Source of the DNA: Elusimicrobia bacterium HGW-Elusimicrobia-2
Lineage (GTDB): Bacteria; CG03
DNA length: 6,482 nt
Assembly: GCA_002841685.1 (NCBI GenBank)
Contig: PHAM01000080.1
Coordinates: 1-6,482, forward strand
Reading direction: 5' to 3'
Numbering within the stretch: position 1 is the stretch's first letter; every line of letters begins with the position of its first letter. Shown in pieces: positions 520 to 6,482 of this stretch. The notes under the pieces were generated by a model, which made no database searches, was not told the DNA's origin, and saw only the letters and a list, made by a program, of their open reading frames with translations. The position numbers were made by a program, and so were the translations under genes.

Positions 520-831
520 CTATAACAACTCGACGACGGTTGCGCCGTAGCCGCCATAGGAACGCGTGGCATAATAATATATGGATTTATAAGGGCTTGT
601 AGAAAGATAGTCCCAGGTGATCTGCCGTAATACACCTCTGCCAATACCATGGATGATCAGCACTCTTTTCCTGTGTTTGACTACCGCGGCATCCAGAAAA
701 GCCTCTATTTTGTTTTCAATGAGCCACGAGGATGTCCTATGAAGATCTATCGTCTCATCTATGGCTAGAATAGGTTCCGTATATTCTTTCATAGAATTAT
801 TTTTTTGTGGATTGCGTTGATTTTTTCTCAT
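520..831 (-). CDS. Stand-alone Smr-domain protein (MutS2 C-terminal type)
   Basis: This 103-residue protein is little more than one Smr domain, the DNA/RNA-nicking module found at the end of MutS2 or alone. Visible motifs are TIDLH (27-31, from the LDLHG motif with Gly replaced by Arg), LIIHGIGRGVLR (58-69, the HGxGxG loop) and GGYGATVVEL (93-102). No MutS ATPase or clamp sequence lies upstream, so it is not the visible end of a MutS2 gene. The first 13 residues are basic and low-complexity (RKNQRNPQKNN). The in-frame Met14 at 792 is an equally possible start, since neither has a good ribosome binding site. It follows the HTH-ATPase gene by 98 bp that contain repeat block B. The nuclease role is known for the family and not shown here. 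Confidence 0.8.
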   Translation of the reverse strand: MRKNQRNPQKNNSMKEYTEPILAIDETIDLHRTSSWLIENKIEAFLDAAVVKHRKRVLIIHGIGRGVLRQITWDYLSTSPYKSIYYYATRSYGGYGATVVELL

Positions 832-885: not shown

Positions 886-914
886 ATCCTGACGCAGGCA
901 AAGGCTTATGTCAA
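886..914 (-). promoter_or_regulatory. Possible promoter for the Smr and OB-fold genes
   Basis: The last unit of block B gives TTGACA (914-909). After 17 bp comes CAGGAT (891-886), which keeps the key A and T of a -10 box but matches only 3 of 6 bases. The start would be near 879, giving a leader of roughly 48 bases before the Smr gene. It is weaker than the block A promoter and speculative. Confidence 0.3.
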
Positions 915-951
915 CCCATTGTCAACCGGTTATTTCTTTTTATTGTCAACC
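907..951. repeat. 45-bp triple-repeat block B, copy of block A
   Basis: The three units are TATGTCAACC (907-916, degenerate), ATTGTCAACC (918-927) and ATTGTCAACC (942-951). Start spacings are 11 and 24 bp, exactly as in block A. Base-by-base comparison with 1986-2030 gives 40 of 45 identical, including 12 of 14 in the T-rich spacer. The 942-951 unit encodes the penultimate Val-Asp-Asn of the HTH-ATPase protein, and its stop codon lies in the spacer. The other two units are downstream of the stop, ahead of the Smr gene. Similarity stops at the block edges. Confidence 0.85.
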
Positions 952-1970
952 GTTTTTTTTACAAACCCTATCATGGCCGTTACCGCCCTGTTTGTATTTA
1001 TCGTTTCTATGACTATATCGGGATATCTGTTTTTAAAAACCCTGAATATTTCATCCGCAAAACCCTGGCCTATTCCCCGTATATCTTTGAAGTCAAGAAT
1101 TATTTTTTTATACTTCTGTAAATTATAAAGCAGCCTTTTCGCCTCAGAACGAGAAGGAATATATTCTTTTCCCGCGGCGAACAGTTTTACCAGAATAGAA
1201 GTTTTTACCCATTCATACTCATATTTTTCCCCGCTGTAAAAATCAAATATACTTTTTAAGTCCTTCCTTGAATTTCTGCTTATGTTAAATTCAACTGCTG
1301 TGCCTTTCCTGTGCCTGATGTTCTGTATCATCATATCTTTTTTTCTATTATCAAATCTTAACTCAGTATTATCACTTTGAATAACCAACTCGTCAGCAAT
1401 TTTTGAAACATAAAACAGCCCCGCTCCCGAATGCTCGCTTTTTGCGGTTGTTGTTTTTCCCTTAATCAGCTCCTGTATTGCCTGAAATTCATCTTTCAGC
1501 TTGAATTTCCTGATAATGTTATTGAATATCCCTACCCCGCAATCTATGATTGAAAAACTTAAACTGTAATTATCCGCTCCAATGCATACTGCCACATCCG
1601 ACGATTGTGAATGGTCTATGGCATTATTGAGTATCTCGGTAAATGAAAAGCCGAATATATCTGACACATTTTTCCTCAGTATGCTCTTCAAATTATATTT
1701 CAGCTCCAGCTCGCTGAAAACTTCATCTTCCCGTAACCCTTTAATAATATATTTTGCCCTGGATTGTATTCCTATCGCTCCGGCTTTACCACGGATCGCA
1801 TATTTGACATTCTTTGTTTTTCCTATTTTTACTATTTCTCCGCTGACAACCAGATCTTTAACGTGTTTGTTTACTGCCTGTCTGGTAACACCCGTGATCG
1901 CCCGTATGTCGCTCACCCTGAAGTATGCCGTTTTTTTTAACCTGTCTATGATTGTTTTTTTTATATCCAT
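930..1970 (-). CDS. Winged-HTH / GHKL ATPase / STAS-like (DUF4325) protein
   Basis: This 346-residue protein has three parts. Residues 5-60 form a winged helix-turn-helix (VSDIRAITGVTRQAVNKHVK, with recognition helix near 29-41). Residues about 85-230 form a GHKL-type ATPase with N box FTEILNNAIDHS (110-121), G1 box IIDCGVGI (141-148) and G2 box HSGAGLFYVSKIAD (180-193). Residues about 256-338 form a STAS-like DUF4325 domain, with IPSRSEAKRLL, then ILDFKDIRGIGQGFADEIF. The ATPase resembles anti-sigma-factor kinases (SpoIIAB/RsbW type) more than sensor kinases; no sensor or His-phosphotransfer region is present. The phosphorylatable Ser of true anti-anti-sigma STAS domains is not seen at the matching IGQGFAD site. 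The ATG is the only sensible start, since the HTH begins at once. Its role is unknown; a nucleotide-dependent autoregulator is the best guess. The last codons lie inside repeat block B. Confidence 0.85.
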   Translation of the reverse strand: MDIKKTIIDRLKKTAYFRVSDIRAITGVTRQAVNKHVKDLVVSGEIVKIGKTKNVKYAIRGKAGAIGIQSRAKYIIKGLREDEVFSELELKYNLKSILRKNVSDIFGFSFTEILNNAIDHSQSSDVAVCIGADNYSLSFSIIDCGVGIFNNIIRKFKLKDEFQAIQELIKGKTTTAKSEHSGAGLFYVSKIADELVIQSDNTELRFDNRKKDMMIQNIRHRKGTAVEFNISRNSRKDLKSIFDFYSGEKYEYEWVKTSILVKLFAAGKEYIPSRSEAKRLLYNLQKYKKIILDFKDIRGIGQGFADEIFRVFKNRYPDIVIETINTNRAVTAMIGFVKKTVDNKKK

Positions 1971-1975
1971 GGTCT

Positions 1976-2004
1976 ATTATGATTTATTGTCAACCTATTG
2001 TCAA
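1976..2004 (-). promoter_or_regulatory. Sigma70-type promoter of the HTH-ATPase gene, probably leaderless
   Basis: On the minus strand TTGACA (2004-1999), supplied by the middle repeat of block A, is followed by 17 bp and CATAAT (1981-1976). Only five bases separate the -10 box from the ATG at 1970, so the predicted start of transcription is at or within one or two bases of the start codon. No Shine-Dalgarno sequence is present. Another repeat copy fills the spacer between -35 and -10. Confidence 0.75.
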
Positions 2005-2030
2005 CCTGTTTTTTCTTTTTATTGTCAACC
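1986..2030. repeat. 45-bp triple-repeat block A (ATTGTCAACC x3), operator-like
   Basis: Three exact copies of ATTGTCAACC (plus-strand reading) lie at 1986-1995, 1997-2006 and 2021-2030, starting 11 and then 24 bp apart. Each contains the symmetric core TTGnCAA. The T-rich spacer TGTTTTTTCTTTTT lies between the second and third copies. The block covers the -35 and spacer of the promoter for the HTH-ATPase gene. A second block with the same geometry is at 907-951. The 11-bp step, one helical turn, suggests binding of a regulator on one DNA face; the HTH-ATPase itself is the natural candidate. Binding is inferred. Confidence 0.85.
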
Positions 2031-2078: not shown

Positions 2079-3329
2079 TTAAATTTTTGACACAGGCGGG
2101 ATTACAGGTTTTTTGTTTTTTATTTCCTTGTATGTAATCATCGGGGGGTCGGAGACAGGGCAGATAAAAGAACATATCATGCAGCTCACACATTTATCTT
2201 TGTCCTGAACAGGCCTTCGTTTTTCACCGTCCCATTCAAGACATTGACCGCCGGCATCCTGACAGACGATATAACATTGACCGCAGCCGATACACCTGTC
2301 CAGGTCATATTCCGCGATACCCTGCCGCTTTAAATCAAAAGCATCAGTTGGATGAATATTGGGCAACGCCTTTCCCACAATGTCGCTGACGTGCCCGTAC
2401 CCTTTTTCTGTCATGAAATCAGAAAGGCCTTCGCGCATATCCTCAACAATTCTATGACCGTAATGTATTACACCCGTTGTTACCTGCAGAGTTGAAGCCC
2501 CGCACAATAAATATTCAACGGCGTCAATCCATGTCTCTATTCCCCCGCAACCTGAGAGAGGTAGATTCAATTCTTTGCATTGAGCCATTTCCGCGATAAA
2601 CCTCAAACCGATAGGTTTTACCGAGGGCCCCGAAAAACCGCTTATTGCTCCTTTTCCAAAGACATTGGGTTTAGGAACATAATCATCAAGACCGACTTCA
2701 GTAATACCCCGCACCGTGTTGATGGCGGTAATACCGTCCGCGCCGCCTTTTTTAGCAAACAATGCCGGTTCGTTTATATCAGTAATGTTGGGAGTCATTT
2801 TCGCGAGAATGGGTATTTTCACAACTTTTCTTACCGCGGCCGTGAATTTTTCCACAAGGTCAAACGCCTGGCCGACCTTCATTCCCGAGCCTTCAACAGT
2901 CATATGCGGACAGGAAAAGTTAAGTTCCAGCATATCCGAACCCGCGTCTTCAGACCTTTTCGCGAGTTCAACCCATTCATCCTCTGAAAAACCCATAATG
3001 CTTGTTATGACCGGATGTTTCGGCCAGTGTTTTTTCAGATATTTAATATCCAGTAAATTATCTTTAAGCGGCCTGTCGGACGTCTGTTCAACATTTTGAA
3101 GGCCGACTAACTTTTTATTCCCATAATTATATTTCGCCATTCTCGGAGACGGGTGTATAATTTTTGTCTTATCAATAACAAGCGTCTTATACGCGACCCC
3201 GCCCCAGCCCATATCAAAGGCCCGTCCCACCATCTCCGCCGTATTTGACACCGGTGAAGATGATAACAAAAAAGGATTCGGGAATTTCACTCCGCACATT
3301 TCTATGCTTAAATCTTTGGGCTTACTCAT
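2079..3329 (-). CDS. preA: Dihydropyrimidine dehydrogenase catalytic subunit PreA (FMN, 2x[4Fe-4S])
   Basis: This 416-residue protein is full length for PreA and reduces uracil or thymine to the dihydropyrimidine. Residues 5-310 form a dihydroorotate dehydrogenase-like FMN barrel. Landmarks are SSSP (23-26), Lys48, Asn79, the active-site loop NFSCPH (137-142) with catalytic Cys140, KMTPN (177-181), INTV (203-206), SGCGGI (259-264) and QVTT (282-285). These match the FMN- and pyrimidine-binding positions of mammalian and E. coli enzymes. The C-terminal ferredoxin domain has C346-x2-C349-x2-C352-x3-C356 and C380-x2-C383-x2-C386-x3-C390-Pro for two [4Fe-4S] clusters. Electrons come from PreT. 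The start is supported by GGGGAG at 3336-3341, 6 bp upstream, and by the ATGA overlap with preT. It is the last gene of the operon. A hydantoin- or other pyrimidine-like substrate cannot be excluded. Confidence 0.94.
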   Translation of the reverse strand: MSKPKDLSIEMCGVKFPNPFLLSSSPVSNTAEMVGRAFDMGWGGVAYKTLVIDKTKIIHPSPRMAKYNYGNKKLVGLQNVEQTSDRPLKDNLLDIKYLKKHWPKHPVITSIMGFSEDEWVELAKRSEDAGSDMLELNFSCPHMTVEGSGMKVGQAFDLVEKFTAAVRKVVKIPILAKMTPNITDINEPALFAKKGGADGITAINTVRGITEVGLDDYVPKPNVFGKGAISGFSGPSVKPIGLRFIAEMAQCKELNLPLSGCGGIETWIDAVEYLLCGASTLQVTTGVIHYGHRIVEDMREGLSDFMTEKGYGHVSDIVGKALPNIHPTDAFDLKRQGIAEYDLDRCIGCGQCYIVCQDAGGQCLEWDGEKRRPVQDKDKCVSCMICSFICPVSDPPMITYKEIKNKKPVIPPVSKI

Positions 3330-4627
3330 TTCTTTCTCCCCGACAGTTTCATTATCTGTTCGGCCGCGGCCTTGCCGTCACGCACTGCCTCTACGACGAG
3401 AGCTTCGCCCCGCACTATGTCGCCGCCGGCGAAGATCCTTTTATCAGTTGTTGAAACGCCGTCTTTTTTGGTCAGCGCCAATCCTTTCTTATCGTACTTT
3501 ATCAGCGAACAGATGTCCCTGCTTTTTTCATCAGGTTTCAATCCTGTGGCGAAGATGAAAAAATCAATCAAAAGATTAAATTCCGTACAGGGAACCTCTT
3601 TGAGATTTGAAGATAAAAAATTATTTGGTTTTATCCAGTCCAGTTCAACACCCTTTAACCCCGTAACCTTTCCGCTTTTTCCAAGAAATTTCAGGACGGT
3701 GGTCTGGGGTTTGATGATTACAAAATTATCCCTGGCCATCTGGACTTCCGCGGGATTCGCGGGCATCTCCTTTTCCGTTCTCCTGTAAATCACATACGCC
3801 TTTTTCGCGCCCATACTCTTGCAGGTTGTGGCGCAGTCCATTGCCACCGCGCCGCCGCCCATTACCGCGACATTTTTATTTTTTATCAGAGCGGATATTT
3901 TTGAAATTTTCCCCGAGCGCAGAGATGTCAAAAATTCTATCGCGGTGGTAATGTTTCCCAGATCCGCGCCGGGGATGTTGAGTTTTTTCCCCTGCCAGAT
4001 ACCGGTTGCGATAAAGACCGCGCTATATCCCTGCTTTAACAAACTTTCCACCCCGTTATCCTTTATCGGCGAATTGAGTTTTATTTCAATGCCGAGGGCA
4101 ATTATATCCCGCAGTTCCCGGGCGAGAAACTCTTTGTTTAAGCGGTATTCAGGTATGGCATATCTTAACATTCCGCCCGCCTCAGGCCTGGCTTCAAAAA
4201 CTGTGACACTAAAACCTTCCCTGGCTAATGTCGCGGCGCAGGACAACCCTGCCGGGCCCGACCCGATGACGGCCACCCTGACATTATTCTTTTTTTTCCT
4301 GTCAAGAGGATTGAAACCTGTTTCCCAGCTGTGTTCCACCAGAAACCGCTGCAGTTTACCGATATTTATTGGCCTGTCAATGCCTGTGGCGCTGCAGGCC
4401 TTTTCGCACAACATTTCGGTCGGACAGACCGCCCCGCACACTCCGCCTAAGATATTATTTTTCTTGATTGTTCTGATGGCGCCTTTGATATTTTTAAGGT
4501 TCATCTTCCGGATAAATGTCGCGGGGTCGGTGGAAGCGGGACAGTCCCGGCTGCATGGCGCGTCATGACATAAAAGGCAGCGCGCCGCCTCATTTTGCGC
4601 TTGAGTCAGGGTATAACCTTTCTTCAT
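3326..4627 (-). CDS. preT: Dihydropyrimidine dehydrogenase subunit PreT (FAD/NAD(P)H, 2x[4Fe-4S])
   Basis: This 433-residue flavoprotein corresponds to the N-terminal half of mammalian dihydropyrimidine dehydrogenase and takes electrons from NAD(P)H. The first 100 residues are the Fe-S domain. It has C17-x2-C20-x4-C25-x3-C29-Pro, then C68-x5-C74-x3-C78, then Gln93 in the INIGKLQ segment. That Gln lines up with the unusual glutamine ligand (Gln156) of the mammalian enzyme. An FAD site follows at VIGSGPAG (120-127), with GGMLRYAIPEYRL (151-163). The nucleotide-binding site is at MGGGAVAMD (256-264) with YRRTEKEMPA (281-290). The closing FAD motif is IFAGGDIVRGEALVVEAVRDG (398-418). Glutamate synthase small subunit is the nearest alternative, but it would not be expected beside PreA. 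The gene overlaps preA by ATGA, so equal production is likely. It acts in the cytoplasm as a PreT-PreA complex. Confidence 0.93.
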   Translation of the reverse strand: MKKGYTLTQAQNEAARCLLCHDAPCSRDCPASTDPATFIRKMNLKNIKGAIRTIKKNNILGGVCGAVCPTEMLCEKACSATGIDRPINIGKLQRFLVEHSWETGFNPLDRKKKNNVRVAVIGSGPAGLSCAATLAREGFSVTVFEARPEAGGMLRYAIPEYRLNKEFLARELRDIIALGIEIKLNSPIKDNGVESLLKQGYSAVFIATGIWQGKKLNIPGADLGNITTAIEFLTSLRSGKISKISALIKNKNVAVMGGGAVAMDCATTCKSMGAKKAYVIYRRTEKEMPANPAEVQMARDNFVIIKPQTTVLKFLGKSGKVTGLKGVELDWIKPNNFLSSNLKEVPCTEFNLLIDFFIFATGLKPDEKSRDICSLIKYDKKGLALTKKDGVSTTDKRIFAGGDIVRGEALVVEAVRDGKAAAEQIMKLSGRKK

Positions 4628-4634
4628 TTAAATT

Positions 4635-4640
4635 CTCCTA
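4635..4640 (-). promoter_or_regulatory. preT ribosome binding site overlapping the mmsA stop
   Basis: AGGAG lies 7 bp before the preT ATG and shares bases with the TAG stop codon of mmsA (TTAGGAGAA). Ribosomes ending on mmsA would sit on the preT start site, which suggests translational coupling. The site also fixes the preT start. Confidence 0.8.
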
Positions 4641-6098
4641 ACTCATCCAGTTGATTCTCTTGCCCTCGGGATTCCATTTGCATGTGATCTTTTTGATTCT
4701 TGTCCAGAACCGTACGGCGCTCTTACCGGTGATGTCGCCGGTGCCGGTTATGGAATCCTTGCACCCGCCGAATGAGAACGGCTCCCGCGGCACAGGCACG
4801 CCGACATTGACGCCGACCATCCCGACCTCTATATTATCGCAGAAAACCTCCGCCGCTCTTCCGTTTTGCGTGAAAATTGACCCGCCGTTGCCGTAGGGCG
4901 ACGAGTTCGCGATCTCAAGCGCCTCGTTAAGGCTCTTGGCATGGACAACCGTCAGTACCGGGCCGAAGTTCTCCTCAACGGCGATCTCGGAACCGCGTTT
5001 CGCCTCTATGACGGTGGGGCCGATATAGAAACCTTTTTCAAGGCCTTTCGGCGCAACGGCATTTCTTCCGTCCAGGAGGATCTTTGCGCCGTCTTTTTCA
5101 GCGCGGTCAATGTATCCGGTGATTGAAATCTTTGCTTCAGCATTTACTATCGCGCTCATATTGTCGCCCGGAATAAATTTTTTCGATTCTTCTATAATTT
5201 TTTTTATTATCCCGTCGCAGTCGCCCACAGCCACCAGCACGCATGCGGACATGCACCTCTGGCCGGCGCATCCAAGGTATGACGCGGCAATATTGACGGC
5301 GGAGTTATCCGGATGAGCGTCCGGCATAAGTATCAGATGATTGTTGGCCGACCCGAGCGCCAGGCATCTCTTATATTTGGCGCTGGATTTTTCATACACA
5401 ATTTTCATTACAGGCGTTGAACCGACAAATGACACCGCCTTGATATCGGGATGTTCGGTCATACCCGTGACTATTTCACGCCCGCCGCAGACGACATTAA
5501 AAACACCGTCGGGAAGCCCTGCCTCTTTGAGCATCTCGCCAATTTTTATGGCGCAATACGGCGCTTCGCGGGAAGGTTTCATGACCATCGTATTGCCGAG
5601 CACAATCGCATTCGGGAACGTCCAATGGGGCACCATATGCGGAAAATTAAATGGTATAATTGAGGCAACCACTCCAAGCGGGATAAATTCTTCACGGCTC
5701 TGCACACCGCCGCTCACCCTTTCGGAATCGCCTGTGGCCACCTGCGGCATTGAACAGGCAAACTCGGTAAGTTCCAAACTCTTTGCCGTCTCCTGCATTG
5801 ACTCTTTGAGATTCTTTCCCATCTCGTCCTGCATTATCTGGGCGCATTCTTCCAGATTTTTAGACAGCAGTTCATAATACTTGTAGAGTATCTGCGCGCG
5901 GTCCTTAATTGTTCTGGCGGACCACTCGGGAAACGCCTTCTTCGCGGCGGCAACGGCTTTATTCAGCTCATCAATTCCAGATAGAGGAAATGTTGAAATG
6001 ACACTGCCGTCCACGGGGCTTATCCGCTGCGCTCTTTTTACACCCGCGGGGCATGACGGTTTCCCGTCGATAAAGTTGCTCAATTCACCATATTTCAT
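4638..6098 (-). CDS. mmsA: CoA-acylating (methyl)malonate-semialdehyde dehydrogenase
   Basis: This 486-residue protein is full length for the MmsA branch of the aldehyde dehydrogenases. The branch oxidises malonate or methylmalonate semialdehyde with NAD+ and CoA, giving acetyl-CoA or propionyl-CoA plus CO2. Visible motifs are PFNFPHMVPHW (oxyanion Asn151), MKPS (Lys174), FVGST (224-228), GCAGQRCMS with catalytic Cys282 preceded by Arg281, and the MmsA-type tail NVGVPVPREPFSFGG, GDITGKS and FWTRIKK. As in MmsA generally, the usual ALDH general-base Glu is absent. Two deviations stand out. The segment usually read GAKNH is GSANNH here, and Lys106 appears to replace an Arg that is otherwise conserved in MmsA. 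The start is set by AGGAGG at 6105-6110, 6 bp upstream. The stop lies 10 bp before preT. In this operon it would finish beta-alanine breakdown. Family is secure; the exact substrate is not. Confidence 0.93.
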   Translation of the reverse strand: MKYGELSNFIDGKPSCPAGVKRAQRISPVDGSVISTFPLSGIDELNKAVAAAKKAFPEWSARTIKDRAQILYKYYELLSKNLEECAQIMQDEMGKNLKESMQETAKSLELTEFACSMPQVATGDSERVSGGVQSREEFIPLGVVASIIPFNFPHMVPHWTFPNAIVLGNTMVMKPSREAPYCAIKIGEMLKEAGLPDGVFNVVCGGREIVTGMTEHPDIKAVSFVGSTPVMKIVYEKSSAKYKRCLALGSANNHLILMPDAHPDNSAVNIAASYLGCAGQRCMSACVLVAVGDCDGIIKKIIEESKKFIPGDNMSAIVNAEAKISITGYIDRAEKDGAKILLDGRNAVAPKGLEKGFYIGPTVIEAKRGSEIAVEENFGPVLTVVHAKSLNEALEIANSSPYGNGGSIFTQNGRAAEVFCDNIEVGMVGVNVGVPVPREPFSFGGCKDSITGTGDITGKSAVRFWTRIKKITCKWNPEGKRINWMS

Positions 6099-6111
6099 TT
6101 ATTCCCTCCTC

Positions 6112-6482
6112 TTAAACAATACCGGATTCTTTTTCTACGATTCCCATTGTTTTATCCAAAGTCTTGATAATAAAATCCGCATCTTCTTTATTAATGCAGA
6201 GAGGCGGCTTTATCCTTATAACATTTCCCGCCATAGCGCCCTTGCCTATAAACAGCCCACCGTCTTTACAGAGTTCCATCATCCTTAATGTTTCCGCCGC
6301 GGCCGGTTCTTTGGTCTTTCTATTTTTAACAAGTTCAATTCCAAGCATCAAGCCTTTACCGCGGATATCTCCGATGATCTTGTGTTTTTTCTGAAGTTCC
6401 TTTAAACCTTCTTTCAGCTGTTTGCCTATTACCTGGACATTCTTCCTGTATTCCCTTTTCTTGATCGTCTCTATCACAAGAC
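6112..6482 (-). CDS. Class III (PLP) aminotransferase, AGXT2-like, C-terminal part
   Basis: The gene is cut by the right edge of the window; about 123 C-terminal residues are visible, and the frame stays open to the edge. The GTG at 6477 is an internal valine, not a start. The visible part is the small C-terminal domain of the class III aminotransferase fold: GDIRGKGLMLGIELV, then GGLFIGKGAMAGNVIRI, PPLCI and EDADFI. The Arg in the VIRIKPPL segment matches the residue that binds the substrate carboxylate in this family. The GKG..GNV-RI-PPL pattern resembles alanine-glyoxylate aminotransferase 2 and beta-alanine/omega-amino acid transaminases. The PLP lysine lies outside the window. It ends 13 bp before the mmsA start, in the same operon. 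By context it probably deaminates beta-alanine or 3-aminoisobutyrate to the semialdehyde used by MmsA. The class is secure; the substrate is inferred. Confidence 0.9.
   Translation of the reverse strand, partial: LVIETIKKREYRKNVQVIGKQLKEGLKELQKKHKIIGDIRGKGLMLGIELVKNRKTKEPAAAETLRMMELCKDGGLFIGKGAMAGNVIRIKPPLCINKEDADFIIKTLDKTMGIVEKESGIV

Follow-up and report, generated by a model that had tools for sequence, protein, structure and literature searches.

The window analysed here is the whole stretch of 6,482 bp, which is an entire contig, and it carries on its minus strand a gene for a 346-aa protein that is bracketed by two closely similar blocks of repeated units (Table 1). The two blocks lie on the same strand and match in 40 of 45 bases, against a best chance identity of 27-30 for 45-mers in 20 Markov resamples of the window. 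Read on the minus strand, which is the strand of the gene, each block is made up of three units of the type GGTTGACAAT, whose starts are 24 and 11 bp apart. Five of the six units are perfect and the sixth (907-916, GGTTGACATA) has two mismatches, with TTGACA kept; TTGACAAT occurs five times in the window where 0.3 occurrences would be expected. The 5′ block is located in the promoter of the 346-aa gene, and the 3′ block spans the stop codon (930-932) and the beginning of the intergenic stretch that precedes the Smr ORF. The original prediction of two triple-unit blocks of 40/45 identity and like orientation, with TTGACA retained in all six units, and with one block at the promoter and the other over the stop codon and the leader of the next gene, is therefore confirmed. 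A genome-wide search for further copies, allowing up to two mismatches, found the paired unit at the two window blocks only, with no third copy in 1.78 Mb. A dispersed repeat can be ruled out, the paired units being essentially confined to the element, and the pair is not a product of chance because homologues of the gene in many phyla have it at the corresponding two positions.

Table 1. Features of the window around the 346-aa gene
Feature	Position	Strand	Description
346-aa protein	930-1970	-	winged HTH ~1-63; GHKL/HATPase ATPase, SpoIIAB/RsbW fold, ~66-235; STAS-like DUF4325 276-329
-10 box CATAAT	1976-1981	-	17 bp from unit 2 TTGACA; 5 nt before ATG; no Shine-Dalgarno
5′ block	1986-2030	-	GGTTGACAAT x3 at 2030-2021, 2006-1997 and 1995-1986; predicted autoregulatory operator
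3′ block	907-951	-	units at 951-942, 927-918 and 916-907; overlaps the gene's final codons together with its stop; lacks a -10 box
Smr-domain ORF	520-831	-	PF01713; downstream chance neighbour, outside the module
Right junction	891-906		G001 98% identical from 891 downward, unrelated above

The genes that adjoin the homologues vary between genomes and are mostly unrelated housekeeping genes, with no family found in more than two of 89 neighbours. On the right the junction is located by G001, a same-genus relative without the element; since its identity with the window stops at 891, the boundary must be no more than 16 bp from the block. The stretch 520-891 (L105) is a 372-bp island, made up of the Smr ORF and a short stub, that is 98% identical to G001. 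The gene preceding this island is a different one in G001 and the homology stops at the Smr stop codon, so that the OB-fold gene is not shared. Positions 2079-6480 encode a PreA-like dihydroorotate/dihydropyrimidine dehydrogenase with a ferredoxin domain, a partner flavoprotein, a semialdehyde dehydrogenase and an aminotransferase, which looks like a putative reductive pyrimidine or beta-alanine pathway cluster, the PreA-like dehydrogenase being the one gene of this stretch that was profile-tested.

Domain composition of the encoded protein

Three Pfam families, PF14213, PF13581 and PF02518, score above their cut-offs in the 346-aa protein. DUF4325 (PF14213) reaches 53.5 bits against a gathering cut-off of 23, and HATPase_c and HATPase_c_2 match on the C-terminal side of the winged HTH. 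The winged HTH itself scores just under the Pfam cut-offs of MarR_2 and a DIP2311-like family, and with 19.7 bits against a cut-off of 27 for MarR_2 the protein is not assigned to the MarR family. Across 55 homologues the residues of the GHKL N-box and of G1/G2 (N115, N116, H120, G145, G147, G182, G184, G223 and T224) are invariant, and the DUF4325 signature GQGFADE-FR (301-310) is mostly so. In the AlphaFold model of the protein (pLDDT 88) the best fold match for residues 66-235 is SpoIIAB/RsbW (Z ~13.7), and residues 1-63 match winged-HTH domains. Judged from its motifs and its modelled Bergerat fold, the protein is a member of the GHKL/HATPase_c superfamily of the SpoIIAB/RsbW type. On the strength of the Pfam domains, the invariant motifs and the fold matches taken together, it resembles a putative anti-sigma-type GHKL kinase and its STAS-like partner, fused behind a DNA-binding domain.

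A search of PDB sequences with the 346-aa protein as a single query gave no match, and no description of this protein type was found in the literature searched, in which DUF4325 is mentioned incidentally and by only two papers. The same genome has another DUF4325 match (G000:C53:37510-38336; L084, L095), which adjoins a separate GHKL ATPase ORF, so that the two domains are there neighbouring genes rather than one chain. A defence system was considered and rejected, as PADLOC gave weak matches to the HTH alone and defence genes were not seen as recurrent neighbours.

Distribution and boundaries of the element

The comparison of the blocks drew on 80 homologous loci collected across many phyla. 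The search of relatives that had been proposed with the original prediction found the upstream block often kept, with the triple unit at about -59/-35/-24, and found both blocks in about 20 homologues, in which the second one overlaps or adjoins the stop codon and usually has the same unit and spacing. Unit steps among homologues are 22-24 and 10-12 bp. Of 13 non-redundant elements, 11 have the same spacing in both of their blocks, where 4.1 would be expected (p=6e-5). A motif-free test detected direct 5′/3′ similarity at 18 of 98 loci and inverted similarity at none, with an in-gene control positive at one of 98. The 3′ block is clustered on the protein tree, in a 41-row clade of which 20 rows have the block and 7 have relics of it; L048 and L049 have a 3′ block though they lie outside the clade. 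We regard the 3′ block as accessory because most homologues outside one clade are without it. The counter-case named with the original prediction, the gene without either block, was looked for; some homologues lack the 3′ block, but largely as a trait of clades in which relics can still be seen, as in the Syntrophorhabdus-type loci L018, L026, L029 and L030. At L006, L021, L034 and L047 a tandem pair of operator blocks lies upstream instead of one block at each end.

The gene is sporadic, being present in 9 of 98 relatives (own genome counted), in none of three same-genus genomes and in 30 of 389 genomes of one class, where the survey found at most one copy per genome. Elements at unrelated sites, with up to 88.7% nucleotide identity, have homology that ends near the block edges. 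For nearly all pairs aligned over the whole element the limits fall between -12 and +1 bp of the 5′ edge and between -5 and +7 bp of the 3′ edge, the 3′ limit tracks the block and not the stop codon, and non-syntenic element pairs have otherwise no homology in their flanks. An apparently sharp 3′ limit between L116 and L117/L118 was discarded as an internal deletion within a syntenic region. Sites without the element that were examined are also without the block, as is seen at the Smr flank in G001, at a tpiA/tRNA-Leu site and at a competence-gene site in several relatives. The spacers of the 5′ and 3′ blocks are near-identical in some elements and diverged in others.

One genome (G218) has a single block at the competence-gene site. 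Its right edge matches a 3′ block and its left flank is orthologous to the site of the element in G098. The simplest reading of this solo block would be that the repeats recombined and the gene was lost, although the event may have run the other way. Two further solo-block candidates were rejected, G467 as an element split between contigs and G372 as decayed remnants of the element. The right flank of the G098 element (L142:8900-9598) looks like the start of a group II intron.

No transposase, recombinase or nuclease domain was recognised in the 346-aa protein, which is the product of the only gene of the element. The ends are direct repeats (0/98 inverted), no target-site duplication is consistent among the elements, and a tRNA as target was rejected because it is found at only one of 18 loci. 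The element is thus not classed as an insertion sequence or DNA transposon, having no recognised recombinase, no consistent target duplication and one copy per genome. A plasmid or phage origin was also considered and is not supported, neither PLSDB nor INPHARED giving a match to the gene. Distant relatives of the gene are present on IMG/VR contigs, and no 3′ block was noticed on the contigs inspected.

Recognition of the units and layout of the promoter

The units of homologues vary (GTTGACAAT, ATTGACAAT, CCTTACAAT, CTTTACAAT and GTTTACAAT, plus an inverted GTTGACAACTTT form), and the first base of the unit covaries with residue 35 of the recognition helix, which is K35 in the window protein. 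Among the first 64 columns this residue has a z of 13.4 and the next column 4.5; K goes with G in 23 of 23 cases, Q or E with C in 5 of 5, and A, I, V or T mostly with A. The covariation is strong but not proof, since the independent changes behind it are few (3 pairs on starred branches; sign test not significant). It nevertheless points to direct binding of the unit by the HTH.

In a subfamily from Patescibacteria and Omnitrophota an inverted repeat (GTTGACAACTTT...AAAGTTGT) takes the place of the direct triple as operator, as found in the upstream regions of L034, L036, L037, L044, L051, L054, L056 and L058; the recognition helix differs there (SRAYINRFF-like) and there is no 3′ block. The distant homologues L116, L119, L122, L074, L080 and L081 have upstream direct triples of their own at ~22-bp steps, with units such as AGGTTGAC, CTGTCTAT, CATTACAA and CACTAAGT, which suggests that the operator has evolved over the whole family.

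Unit 2 of the 5′ block provides the TTGACA of a -35 box. In the 19 flanked elements a -10 box comes 16-19 bp after this TTGACA, mostly 16-17, the start codon usually comes 6 nt after the -10 box, and the layout is similar in most of them; an SD-like motif was found in none of the 19. Because the -10 box is so close to the start codon and a Shine-Dalgarno sequence is absent, a leaderless mRNA is predicted, and the sigma-70-type promoter of the gene is apparently leaderless. Since the 5′ block is built into the gene's own promoter, its occupancy should repress the gene. With a predicted site of its own that overlaps its own promoter and is conserved together with the gene, the protein would be an autoregulated repressor.

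Site and likely role of the 3′ block

The -10 score of the 5′ blocks has a mean of 4.92 against 2.99 (p=0.0004), and the 3′ blocks score the same as shuffled sequence. Intact 3′ blocks face convergent genes at several loci, including L012, L014, L015 and L049. Both the lack of a -10 box and the convergent genes argue against the 3′ block as a promoter operator for the gene that follows. In nine elements the identity of the 5′ and 3′ spacers goes down to 37% and the 3′ units are still 93% consensus; because the units were kept while the spacers diverged, selection seems to have maintained the 3′ site for binding.

In 17 of 20 flanked elements unit 1 of the 3′ block begins within the ORF, and a polymerase stalled before it would leave an RNA without a stop codon in 19 of the 20, a count that assumes a stall 14-18 nt ahead of unit 1. 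LacI at O3, at the 3′ end of lacI, acts as a roadblock that truncates the lacI mRNA (PMC3711431). As a predicted operator that lies where the gene of its own regulator ends, the 3′ block would by position be of the lac O3 type. A loop between the blocks could be an alternative or an addition to the roadblock; the block-to-block distance is 1,055-1,102 bp across elements, and a test of its helical phasing gave no strong signal.

Discussion

The blocks are probably dedicated sites for the protein whose gene they flank, and block, gene and block together would constitute a self-contained autoregulatory unit of ~1.1 kb that roams horizontally. The sequences strongly support a winged HTH that would read a unit of ~9 bp, with residue 35 specifying base 1. 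The 5′ block, well supported as a site wired into the gene's own, apparently leaderless promoter, would bring about repression when occupied. The 3′ block, placed over the stop codon and without a promoter, may be a second autoregulatory site: as at lac O3, protein bound there would hold up RNA polymerase ahead of the stop codon so that a nonstop mRNA results, and/or a loop of ~1.08 kb would connect it with the 5′ block. The fold suggests that binding could be switched by the ATP state and by GHKL/STAS contacts. Recombination between the direct repeats may then delete the gene and leave a solo block, as one site suggests if its direction is read correctly. The part of the original prediction in which both blocks are bound by the HTH protein, which thereby controls itself, is well supported by the sequences, through the conserved operator, the covariation of residue 35 and the overlap with the promoter.

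A single-gene mobile element, with the blocks as direct terminal repeats bound by the encoded protein, is unlikely in our estimate. It would move by a mechanism not yet recognised, which could be recombination or replication by the host, or else an activity residing in the GHKL/DUF4325 domains. It would account well for homology that ends at the block edges, with a 3′ limit that follows the block, for empty sites that lack the block and for the solo block, for spacers that are alike in some elements and dissimilar in others as in aging terminal repeats, and for the sporadic presence of the gene. However, no domain of a mobility enzyme is recognised, the class survey found no genome with a second copy, and neither inverted ends nor a consistent target duplication was seen. 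Moreover, most of the family is likewise sporadic without having a 3′ block, and a deletion bias after ordinary transfer could trim the flanks to the functional edges. Less likely again is a new type of minimal mobile element, in which the product of one gene binds its own terminal repeats and so enables precise gain and loss across phyla with no classical recombinase, the same repeats doubling as promoter operator. The suggestion that the blocks mark the ends of a moved cassette stands to the extent of the edge-limited homology and the solo block, and is compatible with the reading of the blocks as the protein's own operators.

It is very improbable that duplication left the 3′ block behind as a passive by-product, kept by chance and now decaying. 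The relics in the Syntrophorhabdus-type loci and the absence of the block from many homologues would fit such decay, but the 3′ units are ~93% consensus at ~37% spacer identity and 40-50% protein identity in several phyla, and the geometry of the 5′ and 3′ blocks agrees within elements. The remaining explanation, in which the 3′ block is an operator of the following gene and the protein thereby regulates the genes downstream (Smr and OB-fold in the window), appears the least probable of all. Control of these two genes had been proposed in the original prediction, and the next gene is indeed co-directional and near in the window and at several other loci. The 3′ blocks have no -10 box, however, intact ones face convergent genes and the neighbours are unrelated from locus to locus, so this proposal is not supported.

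If the two blocks are the protein's own operators, a large family, undescribed as far as the literature searched shows, would have a readable predicted operator and a testable recognition code. Gene, operator and mobility would be linked through an apparently leaderless promoter, dedicated sites and transfer limited by the blocks, a linkage that might allow a single regulator gene to be expressed across many phyla. This raises the question of how a regulator with itself as its only evident target is selected.

The element shares direct terminal repeats, a solo repeat and sharp limits of homology with LTR-like and IS elements, but unlike them it lacks a recognised mobility enzyme and a consistent target-site duplication and occurs as a single copy per genome. 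In phage lambda the tripartite operators OL and OR, made up of palindromic 17-bp sites, bracket cI. As predicted for our element, two three-site operators flank a repressor gene and a loop is possible, whereas CI belongs to another protein family, its sites are palindromic and its setting is a phage, in contrast to the direct units and the chromosomal single gene described here. The resemblance to LacI and O3 lies in a repressor-type gene of ~1 kb that ends in a predicted site for its own product, placed so that it could cut the transcript short. LacI, however, is not a winged-HTH/GHKL/STAS protein, and the lac operators are palindromic and serve lacZYA, whereas here the site is a direct triple that is also the predicted operator of the gene's own promoter and the neighbours are unrelated. 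With SpoIIAB/RsbW and their STAS partners SpoIIAA/RsbV the protein has in common the modelled GHKL fold (Z 13.7) and a STAS-like domain so named by Pfam, but both domains are here joined in one chain behind a winged HTH that has a predicted operator of its own.
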